Part shown: one piece after another, positions 15,627 through 29,749 of the stretch
Layout of the letters: each line of letters begins with the position of its first letter
Numbering within the stretch: the stretch's first letter is position 1
NCBI GenBank assembly: GCA_030705675.1
Contig: JAUZPZ010000007.1
Coordinates: 1 to 32,084, forward strand
Length of the DNA: 32,084 bases
Source: Bacillota bacterium
GTDB taxonomy: Bacteria > Bacillota > Clostridia > RUG12999
Direction: 5' to 3'
Translations under genes and position numbers: made by a program
Notes under the pieces: model-generated
The model's input: only the letters and a program-made list of their open reading frames with translations
Told to the model about the DNA's origin: nothing
Databases searched by the model: none

Positions 15627-17135
15627 ATGAGCGATATCGTTCTGGAGCTTAAAAATATAACTAAAATATTTCCCGGCGTAAAAGCTCTCAATAATGTAAA
15701 TTTTTCTCTTGAAAGAGGAAAAATTCATGCAATTATGGGAGAAAATGGAGCAGGGAAATCTACATTTATAAAAGTCATTACAGGCGTGCACAGACCGGAC
15801 GGAGGAGAAATTTATATAAACGGTGAAAAAGTTGAATTTTCAGGTCCGAAGGACGCGCTGGAAAAGAGCATAGCGGCAATATATCAGCACAGCACAAATT
15901 ATCCTTATTTAAGTGTTACAGAAAACATATTTGTCGGGCACGAAATAACAATTGGAAAAAGCGGAAGGCTCGACTGGAAGAAAATGAGAGCGGAAGCGGG
16001 GAGATTGCTTAGTGAGCTTAGCAGCGATATAAGTCCGAGAAGCCAAATGGGAAATCTTACGATAGCGCAGCAGCAAATGGTCGAAATAGCAAAAGCAATT
16101 TCAACAAACGCAAAAATTCTTATTATGGATGAACCTACCGCATCTCTTTCAAAAAGGGAATGTGAACAGCTTTATACAATAACTGAAAAATTAAGGGATA
16201 GTGGAGTATCAATAATTTTTATTTCACACCGTTTTGAGGATATGTATCGTTTGGCAAGTAAGGTAACCGTGCTGAGAGATTCTAATTATATCGGAACCTG
16301 GGATGTGGAAGGAATTTCAAATGAAAAGCTCATATCGGCGATGGTGGGCAGGGAAATAAGCGATATTTATCCGAAAACAAATATACCTGAGGGTAAAGAA
16401 ATTTTTCGCGTCGACGGACTTACAAGGACAGGCTATTTCAGCAATATAAGCTTTAATCTTCATAAAGGTGAAATTCTCGCGCTCACCGGTCTTGTAGGAT
16501 CGGGCAGAACCGAGGTGTGCCAATGTATTTTTGGAATTGAAAAACTTACTAGCGGAAGAATTTATTTGGATGGAAATCATATAAACATTGAAAATCCCAG
16601 AAAAGCACTTAAATTAGGAATAGGCTATTTGCCTGAAGACAGGCAGAAGCAGGGTCTTATTCTTGAATGGGAATTGTATAAAAACGAAACACTTGCCACG
16701 CTGGAAAAGTTTACACAATTTATTAAAATAAACGAAAAAAGTGAACGCCAAAAGGCAAAAGAGTTATCTGAGGAAGTAGATGTAAAAGCCGTAAGTGTCT
16801 ACGATACCGCGGAATCTCTGTCGGGAGGAAATCAGCAAAAAGTAGTTGTGGCAAAATTATTGAATTCAGATTTACGTATAATAATCCTTGACGAGCCGAC
16901 AAAAGGAGTCGATGTAGGTGCTAAAGCCCAAATATATGCTATAATGTCGAATTTGGCAAAACAGGGGTATGGCATAATTATGGTATCGTCGGAAATGCCG
17001 GAAGTTTTAGGAATGGCGGACAGAATCGTAGTAATGCATGCCGGGCAGGTTTCGGCGATATTTAACGTAAAAGACGCCACTCAGGAAAAAATACTTGAAG
17101 CTGCAATGAAAGTACACAAGGATGGGGGAGATTAA
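15627..17135 (+). CDS. Sugar ABC transporter ATP-binding protein (RbsA/MglA/RhaT-like, two ABC domains)
   Basis: Walker A GENGAGKSTFIKVITGVH, LTIAQQQMVEIAKAI, second-domain LSGGNQQKVVVAKLL and IILDEPTKGVDVGAKAQIY. Confidence 0.95.
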   Translation: MSDIVLELKNITKIFPGVKALNNVNFSLERGKIHAIMGENGAGKSTFIKVITGVHRPDGGEIYINGEKVEFSGPKDALEKSIAAIYQHSTNYPYLSVTENIFVGHEITIGKSGRLDWKKMRAEAGRLLSELSSDISPRSQMGNLTIAQQQMVEIAKAISTNAKILIMDEPTASLSKRECEQLYTITEKLRDSGVSIIFISHRFEDMYRLASKVTVLRDSNYIGTWDVEGISNEKLISAMVGREISDIYPKTNIPEGKEIFRVDGLTRTGYFSNISFNLHKGEILALTGLVGSGRTEVCQCIFGIEKLTSGRIYLDGNHINIENPRKALKLGIGYLPEDRQKQGLILEWELYKNETLATLEKFTQFIKINEKSERQKAKELSEEVDVKAVSVYDTAESLSGGNQQKVVVAKLLNSDLRIIILDEPTKGVDVGAKAQIYAIMSNLAKQGYGIIMVSSEMPEVLGMADRIVVMHAGQVSAIFNVKDATQEKILEAAMKVHKDGGD

Positions 17136-17136
17136 T

Positions 17137-18135
17137 ATGAAAGGCACAAAGTCATTTATAAACAATAATATAAGAGAAATTGTGCTTGCAATTGTTATAA
17201 TAGTGCTTGCCGTATTTGTAAACATTCGCAGTTCGGGCGCGTTTCTGACAGGGGAAAATATAATGGATACCCTTTCAGAAACGGCTGTTATGGCAATAAT
17301 TTCTGTTGGCATGATGATAGTCCTCCTGACGGGAGGTATTGACCTTTCGGCGGGTGCGGTTATGGGACTTGCGGGCATGACTGCTACAACAATTCTTAAA
17401 AACAATCATAATTTAAATCCTTTTACCGTAATTCTCATAGCTGTTATTGTCGGCGTTTTGTGTGGTCTCGTAAATGGATTTCTTGTTGCGAAATTAAACA
17501 TTTTCCCTATTATAGCAACTTTGGGAACCATGTATATATTCAGAGGTCTTGTATATGTTGTAAGTCCTATCGGACGTGTAAATCCGCAGGAAATGACAAC
17601 ACCTTTTTTAAATATCGCTACAAAACCGTGGTTCTTTAAAATTAATAACCTGGTATTAATTACAATTATAATTTATCTTATTGCTTGGTATCTGCTTGAA
17701 TATTTTCGGGCGGGACGCCGTATTTACGTTGTGGGAAACAGCATTTCTTCGGCACGGATAAGCGGTATAAAGGCATCAAAAGTACTTTTGTGGGTATATA
17801 CCATCGCCGGTGCTCTTGCCGGGCTGGGCGGCATACTGTATGTTGGTAAATACAGTTTTGCGACGGGAGATACCGGAAGCGGGTTTGAAATGAATCTTAT
17901 TGCGGTGTGCGTACTTGGCGGAGTCAGCGTCACCGGAGGAACGGGTAAGATTTCCGGAGTGATTTTGGGCGCGATATTATTTGGAGAATTGACAAGGGCA
18001 ATGCCCATGATCAATATATCAGAGTTTTGGCAGGAAGCGGTCAGAGGTCTTATTATAATCCTGTCTGTAATTGTAAATGCGCTTATTCAGAGAAATGTAG
18101 TACGTAAATCTCTTGAAAGGAGGGATGAACTGTGA
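17137..18135 (+). CDS. Sugar ABC transporter permease (RbsC-like)
   Basis: GMMIVLLTGGIDLSAGAVMGLAGM, GTMYIFRGLVY, VCVLGGVSVTGGTGKISGVILGA. RBS GGGGGAG before ATG 17137. Confidence 0.93.
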   Translation: MKGTKSFINNNIREIVLAIVIIVLAVFVNIRSSGAFLTGENIMDTLSETAVMAIISVGMMIVLLTGGIDLSAGAVMGLAGMTATTILKNNHNLNPFTVILIAVIVGVLCGLVNGFLVAKLNIFPIIATLGTMYIFRGLVYVVSPIGRVNPQEMTTPFLNIATKPWFFKINNLVLITIIIYLIAWYLLEYFRAGRRIYVVGNSISSARISGIKASKVLLWVYTIAGALAGLGGILYVGKYSFATGDTGSGFEMNLIAVCVLGGVSVTGGTGKISGVILGAILFGELTRAMPMINISEFWQEAVRGLIIILSVIVNALIQRNVVRKSLERRDEL

Positions 18136-19169
18136 GTGATAAAAATTATGGAAGAACAATTATTGCGGAACGGGCGTTCAATACAAAAAGATTTTTTTTA
18201 CGCTGGGAATGGATGCTTGTTGTTTTGCTGGTTATAATAAATATATATAACAGCATAAACGCCCCCGGATATTGGGGCACGGGACTGCTTACCTACGGAG
18301 TACGGGATTTTATGGACAAGGCAATTATGGTATTCCCAATGATGCTGGTTTTGCTGTTAGGAGAAATCGACGTTTCCGTAGCCTCCACCATGGCGCTATC
18401 CTGTGTTATAATGGGAATGGTTTACGGGGAAGGAAGTACGGGCGTACCCATGTGGGCGGCAATTTTGGCTGGCCTTTTTATAGGCGCTGTGTGCGGTTTC
18501 ATAAACGGACTGATTTTGGTCGCTTTTAAAGAGTTATCTTCGGTTATAGTGACTATTTCCACAATGATAATTTTCAGAGGAATTGCACAAATATTGCTGG
18601 AAACACGATCATCCGGAAAATTCGCTTCATGGTTCCAGTATTTAAATTACGGACAAGTGGGAATAATTCCATTTGATATAATATTTTTTGCGATCGAGAC
18701 AATAATTTTTGCCTATGTTATTCATAAAACTCCGTTTGGCAGAAGGGTTTACGCAATGGGCTCAAACATTACAACCGCTCGCTATTCGGGGATAAATACG
18801 GGAGGAATAAAGCTGCTGATTTTTACATTAAACGGTTTATTTGCAGCTGTGGCGGGTATGTTTGCGGCATCAAAGATGAGCAGCGTACTTCCCTCAATGG
18901 CAAAAAATTATGAACTTGATGTCATATCCATGGTAGTACTCGGAGGCGTAAGTACGTTGGGAGGCAAGGGAAATGTCCTAGGCGTAGTGCTTGCCACTTT
19001 TGCGGTGGGAATGATAAGATATGGTCTTGGACTTGCGGGAGTAAATTCACAGACAATACTTGTAATTGTAGGACTTATGCTTATAATAGCGGTATCAGTG
19101 CCGAACTTCAAAAAAACTTTTGGGGAATCGGCATTAATAAAAAAATTTTCAAAAAGTAAATTAGCATAA
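18132..19169 (+). CDS. Sugar ABC transporter permease (second RbsC-like subunit)
   Basis: MLVLLLGEIDVSVASTMALS, STMIIFRGIAQ, MVVLGGVSTLGGKGNVLGVVLA. Overlaps the upstream gene by 4 nt. Confidence 0.93.
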   Translation: MSDKNYGRTIIAERAFNTKRFFLRWEWMLVVLLVIINIYNSINAPGYWGTGLLTYGVRDFMDKAIMVFPMMLVLLLGEIDVSVASTMALSCVIMGMVYGEGSTGVPMWAAILAGLFIGAVCGFINGLILVAFKELSSVIVTISTMIIFRGIAQILLETRSSGKFASWFQYLNYGQVGIIPFDIIFFAIETIIFAYVIHKTPFGRRVYAMGSNITTARYSGINTGGIKLLIFTLNGLFAAVAGMFAASKMSSVLPSMAKNYELDVISMVVLGGVSTLGGKGNVLGVVLATFAVGMIRYGLGLAGVNSQTILVIVGLMLIIAVSVPNFKKTFGESALIKKFSKSKLA

Positions 19170-19185
19170 AAAGGAAGGAAAAAAA

Positions 19186-20250
19186 ATGAAAAAGAATTTA
19201 TTGAAACTCATTTCACTAATTACAACAGTAGCAATTTTGTCTACTGTTGCAGGGTGTGGAAGAAAAACTATTACAAAATGGCAAAGCAATGCAGGCAATG
19301 CAGTAAAAGGGACCATAAGCGGAAAAACATTTGCGCTTGTGGGCAAAGATGTAAGTAACCCATACATGCAGAAAATGTATGAGGGCTTTGAAAATGCATG
19401 TAAAAAAATAGGGGTAAAAGCGGTTTACCGCGGACCAGACCTTGCAACGCCGGAAAAGCAGATTGAAATTATCAATCAGCTTGCGGCGCAGGACATAGCG
19501 TTGATTGCGGTTGCAGCAAATGATGCGAATGCTTTGCAGCCCGCTCTTAAAAACGCAATGAATAAGGGAATAAAAGTAATATCTCTGGATTCCGCCGTAA
19601 ATAAAGAAAGCCGTATGCTACACATTCAGCAGGCCGATCCGGAGAAAATAGGAAGAGGTCTTATACAGGCGGCATACGACATGGTGAATGGTAATGGCGG
19701 AATAGCGGTGCTTTCAGCTACCGCACAGGCTACAAATCAAAATTTATGGATTTCATGGATGAAAAAGGAAATTGATGAAAATAAAGACAAATATAAAAAC
19801 ACTCCCCTTGTAAAGATTGTTTATGGGGATGACGAGCCCACAAAATCAACATCCGAAACGAATGCTCTTCTCACAAATCCTCAAATAAAAGTAATAATTG
19901 CACCTACGACAGTAGGAATGCTGGCGGCCGGAAAAGTATTGCAGGATAAAAAATCCAGTGTAAAGCTTACAGGTTTGGGACTTCCGTCCGAGATGGCACA
20001 ATATATAGAAAGCGGAGTGTGCCCATGGATGTATTTATGGAACCCTATAGATATAGGGTACTTGGCGGCGTATACAGGAAAAGCACTTGTTGAAGGAAAA
20101 ATAAAGGGAAATGTGGGAAATACTTTTAACGCCGGCGATCTTGGAGAAAAGAAAGTGACAAAGGCAGCAGACGGCGGTACGGAAGTAATGCTTGGAGAAC
20201 CGTTTAAATTTGACAAAAGCAATATAGCCAAATGGAAAACGGTATATTAA
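19186..20250 (+). CDS. Sugar ABC transporter substrate-binding lipoprotein (RhaS/LsrB-type, periplasmic-binding-protein-like)
   Basis: Lipobox TVAGCGRK. FALVGKDVSNPYMQKMYEGFENACKKIGVKAVYRGPDLATPEKQIEIINQLAAQDI...TNQNLWISWMKKEI resembles the RhaS/LsrB family. Confidence 0.88.
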   Translation: MKKNLLKLISLITTVAILSTVAGCGRKTITKWQSNAGNAVKGTISGKTFALVGKDVSNPYMQKMYEGFENACKKIGVKAVYRGPDLATPEKQIEIINQLAAQDIALIAVAANDANALQPALKNAMNKGIKVISLDSAVNKESRMLHIQQADPEKIGRGLIQAAYDMVNGNGGIAVLSATAQATNQNLWISWMKKEIDENKDKYKNTPLVKIVYGDDEPTKSTSETNALLTNPQIKVIIAPTTVGMLAAGKVLQDKKSSVKLTGLGLPSEMAQYIESGVCPWMYLWNPIDIGYLAAYTGKALVEGKIKGNVGNTFNAGDLGEKKVTKAADGGTEVMLGEPFKFDKSNIAKWKTVY

Positions 20251-23679: not shown

Positions 23680-24216
23680 ATGGAACAAAACGAGTGGATT
23701 GCAATTAATTATACATTGCCAAGTGAGCCGTCAAGGGTACGAGTATCCATTTGGAGAAAGCTGAAAAGAATCGGAGCAGTTAGTATACAACAATCTATGT
23801 GGATATTGCCTTTAAGCAATGAAAATAATGATTTGTTGAATGAAATTAAAAATGAAGTCTTAAGGAGCAGTGGCGAGGCACTTGTTATATCGTTCTCTAT
23901 CGAAGAAGATGGTAAAAAACTTATTATAGAAAATTTCAATGCGGCGAGGGACGAGGAATATGGGGAGCTTCTTGAACAATGCGAAGAATTTTTCAAAGAG
24001 ATTGATAAAGAAATAGCACGAAAAAATTTTATATTTGCTGAAATTGAGGAAAATGAAGAAGAACTAGGCAAGCTTAAACAATGGTATGAAAAAATAGCGG
24101 CACGGGATTTCTTTGGTGCGCCACTTCAAGAAAAGGCAAAGTTGATTTTATCTGAATGTGTGAAGGTGTTGGATAACTTCTGTGAAAAAGTATATGAATT
24201 TAATGACAAAGCGTAA
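23680..24216 (+). CDS. Chromate resistance protein ChrB N-terminal-like protein
   Basis: LPSEPSRVRVSIWRKLKRIGAVSIQQSMWILPLSNENNDLLNEIKNEV...GEALVISFSI resembles the ChrB N-terminal domain. The C-terminal catalytic-like ChrB half is absent. Confidence 0.72.
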   Translation: MEQNEWIAINYTLPSEPSRVRVSIWRKLKRIGAVSIQQSMWILPLSNENNDLLNEIKNEVLRSSGEALVISFSIEEDGKKLIIENFNAARDEEYGELLEQCEEFFKEIDKEIARKNFIFAEIEENEEELGKLKQWYEKIAARDFFGAPLQEKAKLILSECVKVLDNFCEKVYEFNDKA

Positions 24217-24226
24217 GGTGAATAAA

Positions 24227-25429
24227 ATGAAAAAGAAAATTGTTTTATCTAATATTGTAATGCTTGGACTTGTCAGCATGTTTGTTGATTTGAGTACCGA
24301 AATGGTTTATCCTTTGGTTCCGCTCTTTTTAACAGCTACGCTTGGGGCATCACCAGCCATCGTGGGGATTATTGAAGGAATTGCCGAGAGTATTGCATCA
24401 CTTCTTAAGGTTTTTAGCGGCTATATTGGAGATGTATACCATAATAAAAAACGTCTCGCTTTCGCCGGATATTCGGCGTCTGTTATTTATAAGATATTTC
24501 TCATTCTGGCCGCGTCATGGCCGGGTGTTTTAGTGGCAAGAGTGATCGACCGTACCGGAAAAGGTATTCGCACCGCTCCGCGCGATGCGCTTGTAGCGCA
24601 GTCAAGTAACGGCAAAAAACTGGGTGGGTCATTTGGACTACATAAGATGCTGGATATGGCCGGGTCATCTCTCGGCGCATTGTTCGCTTACCTCTTTATT
24701 GTTACTAACTTCGGATTTCACAAAGCGTTTCTGTTTTCCATTATTCCTGCGGTCATTGGTATTCTGATCATTTTTGCCGTTAAGGAAGACAAGAGCTGTG
24801 AAGTTCCCTGCGAAAAGCTTACGCTTAAGGGGATTAAGCTTGATGGAAAACTAAAAATGTATCTTGCAGTAATGTTTATATTCTGCCTTGGAAATTCATC
24901 AAATACATTTTTACTTTTAAAAGCTCAGGAAAGAGGTTTTTCGTCATCACAGGTCATTTTGTTGTATCTGATTTTTAATGTGGCAACATCCGTTCTTGCT
25001 ATTCCGTCGGGTAAGCTGTCCGATAAATTTGGGAGAAGCAAGATACTTGTACCGGGATACTTGATATACGGCTTTGTCTATCTCGGATTTGCGCTTATGT
25101 CATCGAAGCCTGCCATTCTGTTTCTGTTTATTGCATACGGTGCATACACAGCCTTTGTCAGCGGCGCAGAACGAGCCTTCATTGTGGAAAACTCTCCATC
25201 CGGTCTTAAAGGAACCATACTCGGACTCTATGGAATGCTGCAGGGCATTGGCTTGCTTCTGTCTTCTATTATTGCTGGCTTACTATGGGATTATATTAAT
25301 TCTGGCGCGTCGTTTATATTTGGAGGTGTAATCGGCATTATTTCAGCCCTTACAATTTTGGTTATATTAGAGAAAAATAATTTGATGAAGCTTTTCCAAC
25401 GGGCAACGAAAGATGCTGATAAGGTATAA
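24227..25429 (+). CDS. Major facilitator superfamily transporter
   Basis: Multi-pass. SMFVDLSTEMVYPLVPLFL, RVIDRTGKGIRTAPRDALVAQSS, GKLSDKFGRSKIL motifs. Start at ATG 24227 inside ORF 24182, close to the ChrB-like stop. Confidence 0.9.
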   Translation: MKKKIVLSNIVMLGLVSMFVDLSTEMVYPLVPLFLTATLGASPAIVGIIEGIAESIASLLKVFSGYIGDVYHNKKRLAFAGYSASVIYKIFLILAASWPGVLVARVIDRTGKGIRTAPRDALVAQSSNGKKLGGSFGLHKMLDMAGSSLGALFAYLFIVTNFGFHKAFLFSIIPAVIGILIIFAVKEDKSCEVPCEKLTLKGIKLDGKLKMYLAVMFIFCLGNSSNTFLLLKAQERGFSSSQVILLYLIFNVATSVLAIPSGKLSDKFGRSKILVPGYLIYGFVYLGFALMSSKPAILFLFIAYGAYTAFVSGAERAFIVENSPSGLKGTILGLYGMLQGIGLLLSSIIAGLLWDYINSGASFIFGGVIGIISALTILVILEKNNLMKLFQRATKDADKV

Positions 25430-25485
25430 AGCTTTGATATAAAAGTAACGATCAAGCATAATGTTCATACGATAGGAGATTACTA

Positions 25486-25983
25486 ATGAAAGATAGTATT
25501 TACAAACAAAAAAACTTAGTTCATATAGGTTTTGAAATTGGGCTGATTTTAAAGGGCATTCACGGCTTTATTGAGATTATTGGCGGGGTATTTCTGTTAT
25601 TCTTAAGCCCGAGCAGGCTGGATTGGCTGACACGTTTTTTAACTCAGCATGAATTATCGGAAGATCCCAAGGATAAAGTGGTGAATTTACTGTTAACCTT
25701 AAGCAGCAGTTTTTCAATTAGAGCCCAACATTTTGCTGTATTTTATTTGATGTCGCATGGGATTATAAAATGTATCCTGATTCTTTTACTGTGGCGAAGG
25801 AAGCTGTGGGCATATCCGCTTACCATCATCTCTTTAATTCTGTTTATCGCGTATCAGATATACCGTTATACGCTGACTCAATCTATATTTCTCGTGTGGC
25901 TTACTATTTTCGACGTTGTTATGATTATATTGACCTACCTGGAATATAAAAGAGTTAAATTAGCACTTACAAAAACAAAATAA
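25486..25983 (+). CDS. DUF2127-like membrane protein
   Basis: FEIGLILKGIHGFIEIIGGVFLLF...FAVFYLMSHGIIKCILILLLWRRKLWAYPLTII...YQIYRY matches the DUF2127 pattern. Confidence 0.8.
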   Translation: MKDSIYKQKNLVHIGFEIGLILKGIHGFIEIIGGVFLLFLSPSRLDWLTRFLTQHELSEDPKDKVVNLLLTLSSSFSIRAQHFAVFYLMSHGIIKCILILLLWRRKLWAYPLTIISLILFIAYQIYRYTLTQSIFLVWLTIFDVVMIILTYLEYKRVKLALTKTK

Positions 25984-25995
25984 TCTTAATTCTAG

Positions 25996-26023
25996 TGCAA
26001 CCTTTTTCGGTTAGCTACGTGTA
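25996..26023 (+). promoter_or_regulatory. ECF-sigma-type promoter, probably autoregulatory
   Basis: TGCAAC (25996-26001), CTTTTTCGGTTAGCTA (16 nt), CGTGTA (26018-26023). Compare the classic ECF consensus TGAAAC-N16-CGTA. Confidence 0.65.
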
Positions 26024-26054
26024 ATAAAATGAAAGCCATAAAGGTGGTGAGGTT

Positions 26055-26597
26055 TTGGATGAGATTTCTTTGGTAATATCTGCACAGAAGGGTGAAAAAG
26101 AGGCGTTTCAAAGCCTTGTTGCCTATTACTATCCGTATGTTTCAAAATTTCTTTTGAAGATGTGTGAAGATGTGACTATAAGTGAGGATTTGACACAGGA
26201 TACATTTTTGAAACTAATACGGGGAATTGATAGATTTGATATTTATGGAAAAGCTTCCTTTACAACTTGGGTAATGACGATTGCAAAAAACTGTTATATT
26301 GATTATTTAAGACGAAACAAGCAGGAGATATTAAGTCTTGAGGAGCATGAGGCAGCATCTCAATCTAATGTTCAAGATATGGTGCTGGGCCGTATACAGG
26401 CAGAAGAAATGCTAAAAGTTCTGGAAACCCTGCCGACCGAACAGGCTGTTGCCATCAAGTTGAAATATATGGAACAGCAATCTCTTCAGGAAATTGCCTA
26501 CCAGCTTTCATGCGAAACAAAGACAGTAAAAAGCCGTATACATAATGGCATGGTCAAAATTAGAAAAATGATGAAAGGAGATTTTTATCATGAATGA
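26055..26597 (+). CDS. RNA polymerase sigma-70 family factor, ECF type (SigY-like)
   Basis: Region 2: LTQDTFLKLIRGIDRFD...FTTWVMTIAKNCYIDYLRRNK. Region 4: LPTEQAVAIKLKYMEQQSLQEIAYQLSCETKTVKSRIHNGMVKIRK. TTG start after AAGGTGGTGAGG. Confidence 0.92.
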   Translation: MDEISLVISAQKGEKEAFQSLVAYYYPYVSKFLLKMCEDVTISEDLTQDTFLKLIRGIDRFDIYGKASFTTWVMTIAKNCYIDYLRRNKQEILSLEEHEAASQSNVQDMVLGRIQAEEMLKVLETLPTEQAVAIKLKYMEQQSLQEIAYQLSCETKTVKSRIHNGMVKIRKMMKGDFYHE

Positions 26598-26859
26598 AAA
26601 TATAGACGAGCTGCTTTGCAAGTTAGACGATGAAATTGACAGAAAATGCTTAGAAATCAAACAAAGGAATAGAAACAAAATACTGCAAACAGTATTTATC
26701 ACCACCTGTGTTTTATTCATCATTTTACCTATAGTACTTATTTTTGCGGGAGTTAGCCTTTGGACATTCTGCATTCCGGCAATTATTTTTTTCACAATCA
26801 GCTTTAGCTTATTATCTCCACTTGCACTTAATAACAAATCGGGAGGGTTAGAAATATGA
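26590..26859 (+). CDS. Small two-TM protein in the YxlC (anti-sigma-Y) position
   Basis: 89 aa with a charged N-terminus and two TM segments. Overlaps the sigma gene by 8 nt. Placement resembles sigY-yxlC. Confidence 0.6.
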   Translation: MNENIDELLCKLDDEIDRKCLEIKQRNRNKILQTVFITTCVLFIILPIVLIFAGVSLWTFCIPAIIFFTISFSLLSPLALNNKSGGLEI

Positions 26860-27809
26860 ATCGATTTAATAGTTTTGTGAGAAAGCTCAATTTTAAGAAG
26901 GTAATTATTGTCTATCTGATTGTTTCGGTTCTCGCCGGAATCCTATCAGTTGGATTTTTAGCTTATACATTCCGCGATAAACTCACATTTGCCTATGCGT
27001 ATCACCAAATCAGTGAAAAGGTAAGTCACAATAAATACGGTATTGAAAATCTTAAAACCGAATTAAGTAATTTATCTAATAAGTCATCTGATATGGTTGA
27101 TATTTTGATTCTGGATAGTAAAAACAAAATTATGTTCAGCGCCAAAAACTCTGATTTGTCTAAAAGAGGGACAATCGAGCTTCTCCCAAATGTTGATGGA
27201 GGAAATCGTTTTCTTATGGATAAGGAAAATCCGGATGCGTATTTTAAGCTGATAAAGGGTGACAAACATACTTTGTCCATGACTATGCTTGGCGTTGAAA
27301 ATAAAGTGGAACAAGACTATAAAGACCGCTATTTCTATGAAAAAAGTTTTGATGCCAAGAAAGTATATTTACTTTCTTATATTATGGATAAATCAAACGG
27401 ATATAAAACTTATTTTATCAGCGATGTTCATCCCGTCGCGGGTGGTGTACTCTATATCAAAGCCGTAGCTGCTCTTGCCACGTTGCTTTTTATGCTTTAT
27501 TGGGTTTTGCTGGCACTTTGGGTTTATGCACAGGCACTCAAATCAAGACAAAATGCAGCTGTGTGGGGATTGATTACGCTGTTTACGAATCTGGCTGGAT
27601 TGTTTGTTTTCCTCATATACAAGCAAGGTCATCAAGCCTGTTATAAATGTGGGGCTCTGCAAAACAGATCAAACATTTATTGTACCTTCTGCGGTACGAA
27701 GATTGGCTTTGTCTGTAAAAAGTGCAATATGCCTGTAAGTGAAAATGACAGCTACTGCAAAAATTGCGGCAATGCGCTGTGTAGTGAACAGGAAGGAAAA
27801 CAGAAATAG
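26856..27809 (+). CDS. Membrane protein with predicted extracytoplasmic sensor-like region and C-terminal double zinc ribbon
   Basis: N-terminal TM (VIIVYLIVSVLAGILSVGFLAYTF), ~150-aa soluble segment with VDILILDSKNKIMFSAKN, two further TMs, then CYKCGALQNRSNIYCTFCG / CKKCNMPVSENDSYCKNCG. 4-nt ATGA overlap with the previous gene. Confidence 0.75.
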   Translation: MNRFNSFVRKLNFKKVIIVYLIVSVLAGILSVGFLAYTFRDKLTFAYAYHQISEKVSHNKYGIENLKTELSNLSNKSSDMVDILILDSKNKIMFSAKNSDLSKRGTIELLPNVDGGNRFLMDKENPDAYFKLIKGDKHTLSMTMLGVENKVEQDYKDRYFYEKSFDAKKVYLLSYIMDKSNGYKTYFISDVHPVAGGVLYIKAVAALATLLFMLYWVLLALWVYAQALKSRQNAAVWGLITLFTNLAGLFVFLIYKQGHQACYKCGALQNRSNIYCTFCGTKIGFVCKKCNMPVSENDSYCKNCGNALCSEQEGKQK

Positions 27810-27810
27810 T

Positions 27811-28455
27811 ATGAATAAACGAAAAAAATGGCTTGTTATTGTACCGATTATATTGTTTGCCATGTTAGCTGTATGCATTCAGGCAAAACGGTCTGCTCCG
27901 TTCGATGAATGGGCCTACAGTAAAGCCGCTGAAGGTATATCACCTAATTTAACTATGATGATGAAACGCATTACGCACATTGGGGATTCCACCGTTATTA
28001 TTATATTTTGCTTGGCACTGTTTATCGTACCAAAATTAAGAAGAACAATTGCGCTGCCAGTTTCAATAACTATGATATCTTCTGCCATATTCAATATTGT
28101 GTTAAAACGTATCTTCGCAAGAAGCCGTCCGAATATTTTGCAGCTTATAAGCGAAACGGGCTATAGCTTCCCCAGCGGCCATGCAATGAACAACGCTGCC
28201 CTTTATACCATGCTGATATTGCTTATTTGGAGATATTTCAAGAATACTTCTTTGAAGATAACCCTTTCTTTGGTTTGTGCTGTAATGACAGTTTTGATAG
28301 GATATAGCCGAGTTTATTTAGGTGTCCACTATGCGGACGATGTTTTAGGCGGCTGGTTGTTCGGATTTGCAATATCAATACTTGTCTATTTATTATGGGA
28401 TAACAAACTTTCAAACAAGAACACAAAACTCAAGGTACCTCAAGAAAGGAATTAA
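27811..28455 (+). CDS. PAP2 family phosphatase (BcrC/PgpB-like, putative undecaprenyl-pyrophosphate phosphatase)
   Basis: KRIFARSRP (KX6RP), YSFPSGHAM (PSGH), YSRVYLGVHYADD (SRX5HX3D). Start at ATG 27811. Confidence 0.9.
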   Translation: MNKRKKWLVIVPIILFAMLAVCIQAKRSAPFDEWAYSKAAEGISPNLTMMMKRITHIGDSTVIIIFCLALFIVPKLRRTIALPVSITMISSAIFNIVLKRIFARSRPNILQLISETGYSFPSGHAMNNAALYTMLILLIWRYFKNTSLKITLSLVCAVMTVLIGYSRVYLGVHYADDVLGGWLFGFAISILVYLLWDNKLSNKNTKLKVPQERN

Positions 28456-28458
28456 AAA

Positions 28459-29067
28459 ATGCAAGAATGGATCATCAGTATCATGAATCAGTTCGGATAC
28501 TTTGGTATTGCACTACTCATTGCCATTGAAAACGTATTTCCTCCAATTCCCTCTGAACTGATTTTGACCTTCGGCGGCTTTATGACTACATATACCAGCA
28601 TGAATATCTGGCTGGTGGCTTTGTGTGCCACCGTAGGTTCTGTTACCGGTGCAATTATTCTTTATAGCATTGGGCGGCTTTTGCCAATCAAAAAAATGGA
28701 ATGGATCATTGGTAAATGGGGACGTGTACTCGGCTTAAAAAAGGAAGATGTAAAACGGGCAGAAAATTGGTTTATCCGCCGCGGTACTTCCACTATCTTT
28801 TTTTGCAGATTTATTCCCCTTGTACGAAGCCTTATTTCCATACCGGCTGGTATAGCGCATATGCGCAGGGGTAAATTTCTTTTGTATACAACCCTCGGCA
28901 CAGCTATTTGGAATGTGGTCTTAGTGTGCCTTGGTGCCTTTGCCGGAGCCGAATGGAAATGTATTGTTAAATATACGGATACATATTCGTATATCGCTCT
29001 TGTTATTATGGCTGTAATAGGGATTGGGCTTACTATCTGGTTTATAAAAAAAAGAAAGCCACATTAA
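28459..29067 (+). CDS. DedA family membrane protein
   Basis: ENVFPPIPSELILTFGGF and FFCRFIPLVRSLISIPAGIAHM re-entrant motifs. Starts 3 nt after the PAP2 gene. Confidence 0.93.
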   Translation: MQEWIISIMNQFGYFGIALLIAIENVFPPIPSELILTFGGFMTTYTSMNIWLVALCATVGSVTGAIILYSIGRLLPIKKMEWIIGKWGRVLGLKKEDVKRAENWFIRRGTSTIFFCRFIPLVRSLISIPAGIAHMRRGKFLLYTTLGTAIWNVVLVCLGAFAGAEWKCIVKYTDTYSYIALVIMAVIGIGLTIWFIKKRKPH

Positions 29068-29217: not shown

Positions 29218-29309
29218 ATAAGAAAAAGCCTTGAAACTACGCAGTTTTAAGGCTTTTGTGCATAAAAAAATAGCAAGCCAATGATACATTTGCTTGCTAT
29301 AATTATGGT
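29161..29309. repeat. Direct repeat copy A of the tRNA-Arg 3' flank
   Basis: gagggtgcaaat...agccttgaaactacgcag...ggcttttgtgcataaaaaaatagcaagccaatgatac...gcttgctataattatggt. Alignable by eye to 31578-31717. Confidence 0.85.
29224..29258 (+). terminator. Hairpin terminator after the DedA operon (repeat copy A)
   Basis: AAAAGCCTT (29224-29232)/AAGGCTTTT (29249-29257). Confidence 0.65.
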
Positions 29310-29374
29310 TTGACTAGGTGTAGCAAGCTGTTGATACAAAATCACTAAAAATCCTTATAAAATCAGTGTTTACA

Positions 29375-29646
29375 TGATATAATAAACACGTAAACGTGTT
29401 TATTATATAGCTAAACGCATAGCGCCCGCGATTTTTTCGCCCTGCGGCTGAGCCGCTTGTGGTCGAAACGCAGATGCGCATAATTATATCATAACTTTGC
29501 AGTTATGATATAATAAACACATAAACGTGTTTATTATATAGCTAAACGCCATAGCGCCCGCAATTTTTTCGCCCTACGGCTGAGCCGCTTGTGGTCGAAA
29601 CGAAGATGCGCATAATTATATCATAACTTTGCAGTTATGATATAAT
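29375..29646. repeat. Right array of the structured intergenic repeat (131-bp period)
   Basis: 32-bp perfect palindrome ATATAATAAACACGT-AA-ACGTGTTTATTATAT (29377-29408), near-identical palindrome at 29508-29539, and two identical ATTATATCATAACT-TTGC-AGTTATGATATAAT inverted repeats (29483-29514, 29615-29646). Confidence 0.92.
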
Positions 29647-29749
29647 AAATGTATGTAATATGAGAATTTGTTATATAAAAAGTAGGCTAAAAAGTGAGTA
29701 GTTCTTCAATTATTATTCTTTTCTATTAAAAATGAAAGGGAGGAATCTT

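Follow-up and report, generated by a model that had tools for sequence, protein, structure and literature searches.

Based on gene order, protein family assignments, structure models and promoter motif searches in related clostridia, we propose that a five-gene operon in a 32,084-nucleotide stretch of a Bacillota bacterium genome (assembly GCA_030705675.1, contig JAUZPZ010000007.1, positions 1 to 32,084; hereafter the window) encodes a self-amplifying response that refills the pool of the carrier lipid undecaprenyl phosphate under the control of an extracytoplasmic function (ECF) sigma factor; we put the probability of this reading at roughly 0.62. The five genes lie on the plus strand and run in one direction, from the sigma gene through the genes for a small protein with two transmembrane helices (two-TM protein) and a zinc-ribbon membrane protein to those for a PAP2 phosphatase and a DedA protein (Table 1). 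Undecaprenyl phosphate, which cells require for building their walls, is scarce, and antibiotics such as bacitracin and amphomycin bind it or its pyrophosphate. The first three genes recur with different targets in other clostridia; judged from these gene neighbourhoods, the correct unit is this sigma trio with interchangeable targets rather than the five-gene operon.

The sigma trio in related clostridia

With an alignment of the zinc-ribbon protein as the query, 35 named clostridial loci were recovered from a collection comprising one genome per species; a single-protein scan with the same protein, likewise over one genome per species, found nothing, and no match was obtained in plasmid and phage collections. 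The order sigma, two-TM, zinc-ribbon is kept in 28 of the 35 loci (some of the remaining seven are interrupted by contig ends), and the three-gene unit is thus the conserved core. Full-length homologs of the zinc-ribbon protein are present in distant families of the class, and the gene is absent from eight other genomes of the window's own family. Cultured carriers of the trio are Clostridium magnum, Fonticella tunisiensis and Desulfosporosinus. The exact five-gene operon was found in one other genome (L046, Oscillospiraceae), where the sigma gene is cut by the contig start; locus L047 extends from the sigma gene through a truncated PAP2 gene, and L048/L032 comprise the zinc-ribbon, PAP2 and DedA genes, in both cases bounded by a contig end. 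In the zinc-ribbon protein tree, L032, L046 and the window form a supported clade (99/98). The first-pass annotation of the window had made its proposal hinge on conservation of the neighbourhood in relatives, and this conservation is borne out. The open-access literature searched holds no description of the trio or of the operon; an earlier description of the group is possible.

Target genes beside the trio

In 16 genomes, PAP2 hits lie within 5 kb of the sigma gene in 18 of 57 cases and VTT (DedA-type) hits in 11 of 59, against 0.16 expected for each, which corresponds to enrichments of about 110-fold and 70-fold that describe carriers of the trio only. PAP2 proteins of several subfamilies, including BcrC-like ones, recur beside the trio or behind its promoter motif. 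The DedA proteins likewise belong to different subfamilies (UptA-like in the window and in L076; DedA/PRK10847, over the cut-off, in L066), so that the pairing with the trio originated, or was exchanged, repeatedly, and DedA-PAP2 fusions adjoin the trio in L064, L067 and L073. In L062, a BacA/UppP gene stands directly 3' of the trio (PF02673, 256 bits). BacA/UppP is an undecaprenyl-pyrophosphate phosphatase, and its family is unrelated to PAP2. On the zinc-ribbon tree, two or three changes are needed to account for the labels PAP2 plus DedA, PAP2 and DedA, which indicates that targets were exchanged in evolution while the theme was kept. Outside a branch whose target is a P-type ATPase, the genes served by the trio appear to be mostly those of carrier-lipid recycling, and the convergence of unrelated undecaprenyl-carrier families (PAP2, BacA/UppP, DedA) on one sigma factor supports the carrier-recycling reading. 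The undecaprenyl-recycling role suggested by the first-pass annotation is partly supported, through the recurrence of PAP2, BcrC-like, BacA/UppP and DedA proteins beside the trio; the window PAP2 itself is YodM/PgpB-like. The description of the cluster as self-contained, also given there, is too strong in general, in view of the P-type ATPase branches and of the distal targets in some genomes.

The P-type ATPase genes have a peculiarity of their own. In five gut clostridial genomes, a single additional base at CTT-CGG, always in the same codon, interrupts the gene (L049:8045, L050:8805, L053:9686, L054:8806, L055:9686), and a similar split occurs in L052. CGG is otherwise almost absent from the P-type ATPase loci, and in the portion after the split, read in the +1 frame, most differences are synonymous. 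The pattern has the appearance of programmed +1 frameshifting or of a starved or unassigned CGG codon.

The promoter motif and its distribution

Upstream of the sigma gene lies an ECF-type promoter, TGCAAC-N16-CGTGTA (extended form TGCAACCTTTTT...CGTGTAATA), whose first base is the start assigned to the cluster by the first-pass annotation. The window contains a single match to the pattern (0.01 expected from shuffled sequences), and the whole 1.92-Mb assembly likewise contains one. In related clostridia, the same motif with the same 16-nt spacer stands 5' of almost every sigma-trio operon. The 49 distinct sites, themselves gathered with the promoter pattern, carry information beyond the pattern letters, for example in a T-rich stretch after CAAC and in TA after CGTGTAA. 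The motif also precedes PAP2 or BcrC-like genes in transcription units of their own (L061, L064, L067, L073), a divergent PAP2 gene (L062), DedA-sigma operons (L071, L076), a VTT gene (L065) and P-type ATPase genes (L049, L050, L052-L055, L057, L060, L063, L074, L075). Separate promoters for PAP2 or DedA had been named in the first-pass annotation as a point that would speak against common control; where PAP2 has its own promoter in relatives, this promoter carries the same sigma-type motif, which supports the connection.

Over 29 genomes, the search returned 58 matches, mostly one to three sites per genome, against 33 with a reversed-pattern control. About half of the raw matches could therefore be due to chance and a lone distal site proves nothing; for this reason, the 16 pattern-free letters of the spacer were scored with a matrix built from trio sites only. 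Twenty sites lie outside the trio and its neighbouring gene, and eight of them lead to carrier-lipid or P-type ATPase genes: a BacA remnant, a BcrC-like gene (L115) and a PAP2 gene (L118), both on other contigs, a deacetylase-DedA-PAP2 operon (L116) with its own motif site 6 kb from the trio, two P-type ATPase genes (L119, L123) and two operons with BacA/UppP at their end (L121, L122), on other contigs of two related genomes. The spacers of these eight, a group defined by gene content, outscore those of the remaining twelve (p = 2e-4). The window's genome has a second motif-like site (C46), and so does genome G012 (C62); both were dismissed, as they lie inside genes on the opposite strand.

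Two further observations concern these sites. In F. tunisiensis (L114:239-911), the sigma promoter occurs a second time, before a short open reading frame (ORF) in which the start of a sigma gene is fused with a fragment of the zinc-ribbon gene; a truncated BacA gene comes next. From its composition, we take this segment to be a decayed trio-BacA operon. A GHGHKS-motif gene, which by eye resembles those of glycosyltransferases, is repeatedly found near the BcrC-like and PAP2 targets (L115, L116, L129; C. magnum and Clostridium sp. MAG_CA253).

The sigma factor and its two putative regulators

The identities originally given to the sigma, double-zinc-ribbon, PAP2 and DedA proteins all hold at the level of Pfam, with matches over the cut-offs (marginally for the zinc ribbon). 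The window sigma factor possesses sigma regions 2 and 4 only, as expected of an ECF factor (PF04542, E = 4e-18, and PF08281, both over cut-off; TIGR02937, 99 bits for a cut-off of 42.9), and is 37-66% identical to 24 sigma factors from trios of the same kind. SigY (NF007216) is its top NCBIfam match, in line with the earlier label of SigY-like, and this model is matched by all 25 trio sigma factors; the score of the window protein (137.7 bits) is nevertheless under the cut-off of 194, as is its score against SigM (TIGR02950, 83.4 bits for a cut-off of 147.95).

The 89-aa protein matches no Pfam or NCBIfam family, and the earlier label of YxlC-like describes its architecture only. Proteins of this type are conserved between the sigma and zinc-ribbon genes (26 aligned loci), and their near-invariant residues are mostly in the N-terminal helix (L12, I16, K19 and C20, forming the motif L-x3-I-x2-K-C), followed by F36. 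An AlphaFold2 model, of low confidence, depicts this helix as running on into a transmembrane hairpin. By analogy with known systems, the two-TM protein may sequester the sigma factor.

The zinc-ribbon protein scores 27.5 bits against PF12773 (DZR), barely above the cut-off of 27.3; all eight ribbon cysteines are invariant across a 29-member alignment, together with W216, W237-G238 and T244-N245. Its elements are arranged in the order TM1, a middle domain (about 40-195), TM2, a kinked or re-entrant TM3 and a C-terminal double zinc ribbon (AlphaFold2, pLDDT 78). According to the charge bias, the middle domain is outside, and thus probably extracytoplasmic, with the N-terminus and the TM2-TM3 loop on the inner side; the ribbon would also be outside unless TM3 is re-entrant. 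Re-entry of TM3 would fit its low hydropathy, the invariant Thr-Asn pair and a helix break in the model, without these proving it. By the order of its elements, the middle domain resembles a Cache/PAS-type fold; a fold search against the PDB gave no match at E <= 0.001, with several Cache-type sensor domains at E = 0.05-0.9. A weak resemblance to PLDc_N is seen in the hairpin ahead of the zinc ribbon (7 of the 29 members, best E = 0.0012). In the more distant loci L041 and L043, a sigma gene is accompanied by an H-x3-C-x2-C protein, as in zinc anti-sigma factors, and by a short hairpin-ribbon protein, which suggests that hairpin-ribbon proteins may accompany ECF/anti-sigma pairs more widely.

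The PAP2 and DedA proteins of the operon

The window PAP2 belongs to PF01569 (86.8 bits, cut-off 27.2; E = 1e-24) and has intact catalytic motifs (K..RP, PSGH, SR-x5-H-x3-D). Its nearest solved relative is Bacillus subtilis YodM/PgpB (5jki, E = 6e-24), and it falls under the cut-off of both SepP (63.6 bits) and BcrC/YbjG (NF008813, 41.7 bits for a cut-off of 229; the BcrC-like protein of L067 reaches 106 bits), so that the BcrC type first assigned to it does not stand. The DedA protein belongs to PF09335 (78.4 bits, cut-off 33.9; E = 9e-22) and is nearer to UptA (NF052605, 164.7 bits, under the cut-off of 300) than to other DedA models. Its reentrant-loop arginines, R117 and R123, share the spacing of R112/R118 in UptA (PMC11474028). 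Both proteins therefore have the domain families of the recycling enzymes UptA and YodM/BcrC, with their motifs intact, but remain under every undecaprenyl-specific NCBIfam cut-off. The DedA gene is the sole VTT-domain gene found in the assembly and the PAP2 gene one of two; the assembly also contains a DUF368 gene and two matches to BacA, of which one is partial.

Operon boundaries and genomic setting

The overlaps and gaps between the five genes agree to the base with the first-pass annotation (Table 1). The PAP2 start codon (ATG) sits within a longer ORF with a GTG start. Downstream, a terminator-like hairpin, absent from the output of a simple scan, is predicted to close the unit ahead of an ABC transporter gene at 29732; membership of this transporter in the operon was ruled out by the hairpin and by the intervening 132-bp repeats.

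Table 1. Features of the sigma operon in the window
Feature	Position	Strand	Remarks
ECF-type promoter TGCAAC-N16-CGTGTA, probably autoregulatory	25996..26023	+	single match in window and assembly; motif recurs in relatives
ECF sigma factor, 180 aa	26055..26597	+	TTG start; PF04542/PF08281
Two-TM protein, 89 aa, candidate anti-sigma factor	26590..26859	+	8-nt overlap with sigma gene; 26 aligned loci; AlphaFold2
Zinc-ribbon membrane protein, 317 aa, candidate sensor/co-regulator	26856..27809	+	4-nt overlap with two-TM gene; PF12773; 29-member alignment; AlphaFold2; charge profile
PAP2 phosphatase, 214 aa	27811..28455	+	1-nt gap after zinc-ribbon gene; PF01569, NCBIfam, YodM 5jki
DedA/VTT protein, 202 aa	28459..29067	+	3-nt gap after PAP2 gene; PF09335, NCBIfam UptA
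Terminator-like 15-bp hairpin, 3' arm ending TTTT	29224..29257	+	-18.3 kcal/mol, z -4.1

The repeats between the operon and the ABC transporter (29374-29649) form a 132-bp tandem array of 2.1 copies with 96% match and palindrome-like segments. Directly 5' of the operon, on the same strand (23680-25983), are genes for a ChrB-N-domain protein, an MFS transporter and a DUF2127 membrane protein; the MFS ORF and the ChrB-like gene overlap each other. A sugar ABC transporter operon occupies 15627-20250, with a RhaS-like binding protein just under the cut-off (332.8 bits for 342.25). Contamination of the bin is 5.99%; the contig is likely native, since nine further contigs of the assembly have tetranucleotide profiles that agree with that of the window (r 0.82-0.96).

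Alternative explanations

Several points weigh against a function in carrier recycling. The genomes used for the enrichment came from loci at which the trio had been found, some with PAP2 or DedA cargo and some lacking it, and the assignment of the eight off-trio sites to a group by their genes preceded the scoring of their spacers. In one large branch (11 of the 29 tree loci), the target is a P-type ATPase with neither PAP2 nor DedA nearby. The window PAP2, nearest to YodM/PgpB, may act on phosphatidylglycerophosphate; no undecaprenyl-specific family cut-off is reached, and some DedA proteins move other lipids.

The operon could instead serve phospholipid remodelling, the PAP2 being a phosphatidylglycerophosphate or phosphatidic acid phosphatase of the YodM/PgpB type, the DedA protein moving phospholipid and the sigma factor answering membrane damage. 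The affinity of the window PAP2 to YodM/PgpB is consistent with such a role, and the DedA family does include PetA, a proposed phosphatidylethanolamine flippase (PMC11474028). We nevertheless consider this explanation rather unlikely: BacA/UppP takes the place of PAP2 in L062 and ends two motif-bearing operons, BcrC-like PAP2 proteins sit behind the same motif, the window DedA is closer to UptA than to other DedA models, and YodM itself shows undecaprenyl-pyrophosphate phosphatase activity once its expression is improved (PMC5723303). A general response to envelope or cation stress, with PAP2, DedA and P-type ATPase among several envelope targets and membrane potential, divalent cations or pH as the signal, seems similarly improbable. 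It would account for the P-type ATPases behind the motif in the large branch and at the distal sites L119 and L123; among models and solved structures, these ATPases are closest to pumps for H+, Ca2+ and Mg2+. A link between DedA proteins and divalent cation homeostasis has also been reported (PMC10846249). Outside the ATPase branch, however, the majority target is carrier-lipid genes of unrelated families, and the few motif sites per genome make the regulon look very small, unlike a general stress regulon. Finally, PAP2 and DedA might have entered the operon by accident while the sigma factor controls something else, as the patchiness implied by the eight family relatives devoid of the zinc-ribbon gene could indicate; the conserved order in distant families, the spacing of 1-3 nt and the strong PAP2 and VTT enrichments make such a coincidence very hard to credit.

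Comparison with known systems and proposed mechanism

In its logic, B. subtilis SigM with YhdL-YhdK is the closest known system. SigM responds to undecaprenyl phosphate levels, and its regulon includes bcrC, for an undecaprenyl-pyrophosphate phosphatase, and uptA, for an undecaprenyl phosphate flippase (PMC11081497). SigM controls about 60 genes (PMC5723303), whereas the clostridial motif marks one to a few operons; the recycling genes of B. subtilis are located away from the sigma operon, whereas in the clostridia the putative recycling genes can be inside it. Both systems comprise an ECF sigma operon with two adjacent membrane-protein genes; the role of the clostridial pair as regulators is suggested by gene order and transmembrane content, and the two-TM and zinc-ribbon proteins are set beside YhdL and YhdK by gene order, not by sequence.

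The B. subtilis SigY operon (sigY-yxlC-yxlD-yxlE-yxlF-yxlG) is similar in that the window sigma factor is nearest to the SigY model, a gene for a small transmembrane protein comes next and a hairpin weakly resembles PLDc_N. It differs in that the window sigma factor is under the model's cut-off, the 89-aa protein matches no named family, and the cargo is an ABC transporter instead of PAP2 and DedA. In the DedA-PAP2 fusion proteins described by Sit et al. (PMC9876793), the phosphatase and flippase steps are coupled, whereas the window has two separate proteins under a sigma factor.

At rest, by gene order and the SigM-YhdL-YhdK analogy, the two-TM and zinc-ribbon proteins would hold the sigma factor at the membrane. 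Depletion or trapping of the carrier pool, our guess at the signal, would change the state of the middle domain of the zinc-ribbon protein, and the hairpin of this protein may relay the change and release the sigma factor. The latter would then transcribe the operon that encodes it and, in relatives, additional operons with CAAC-N16-CGTGTA promoters, a motif that we observed and whose use we infer. Going by their families, PAP2 would dephosphorylate undecaprenyl pyrophosphate at the outer face and DedA would return undecaprenyl phosphate to the inner face; once the carrier pool is restored, the response would be switched off. We also raise, tentatively and with considerable doubt, the possibility that the zinc-ribbon protein directly senses undecaprenyl phosphate or pyrophosphate, its zinc-ribbon tail and re-entrant helix relaying the signal, and that it constitutes with the two-TM protein a new class of anti-sigma complex for carrier-lipid homeostasis across the Clostridia.

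How bacteria sense the level of undecaprenyl phosphate is only starting to be understood, from B. subtilis SigM, and the authors of that study predicted analogous pathways in other bacteria (PMC11081497). The sigma trio would be a compact candidate for such a pathway outside the Bacilli; its regulator pair is different, its regulon seems tiny and some of its carriers are available in culture.

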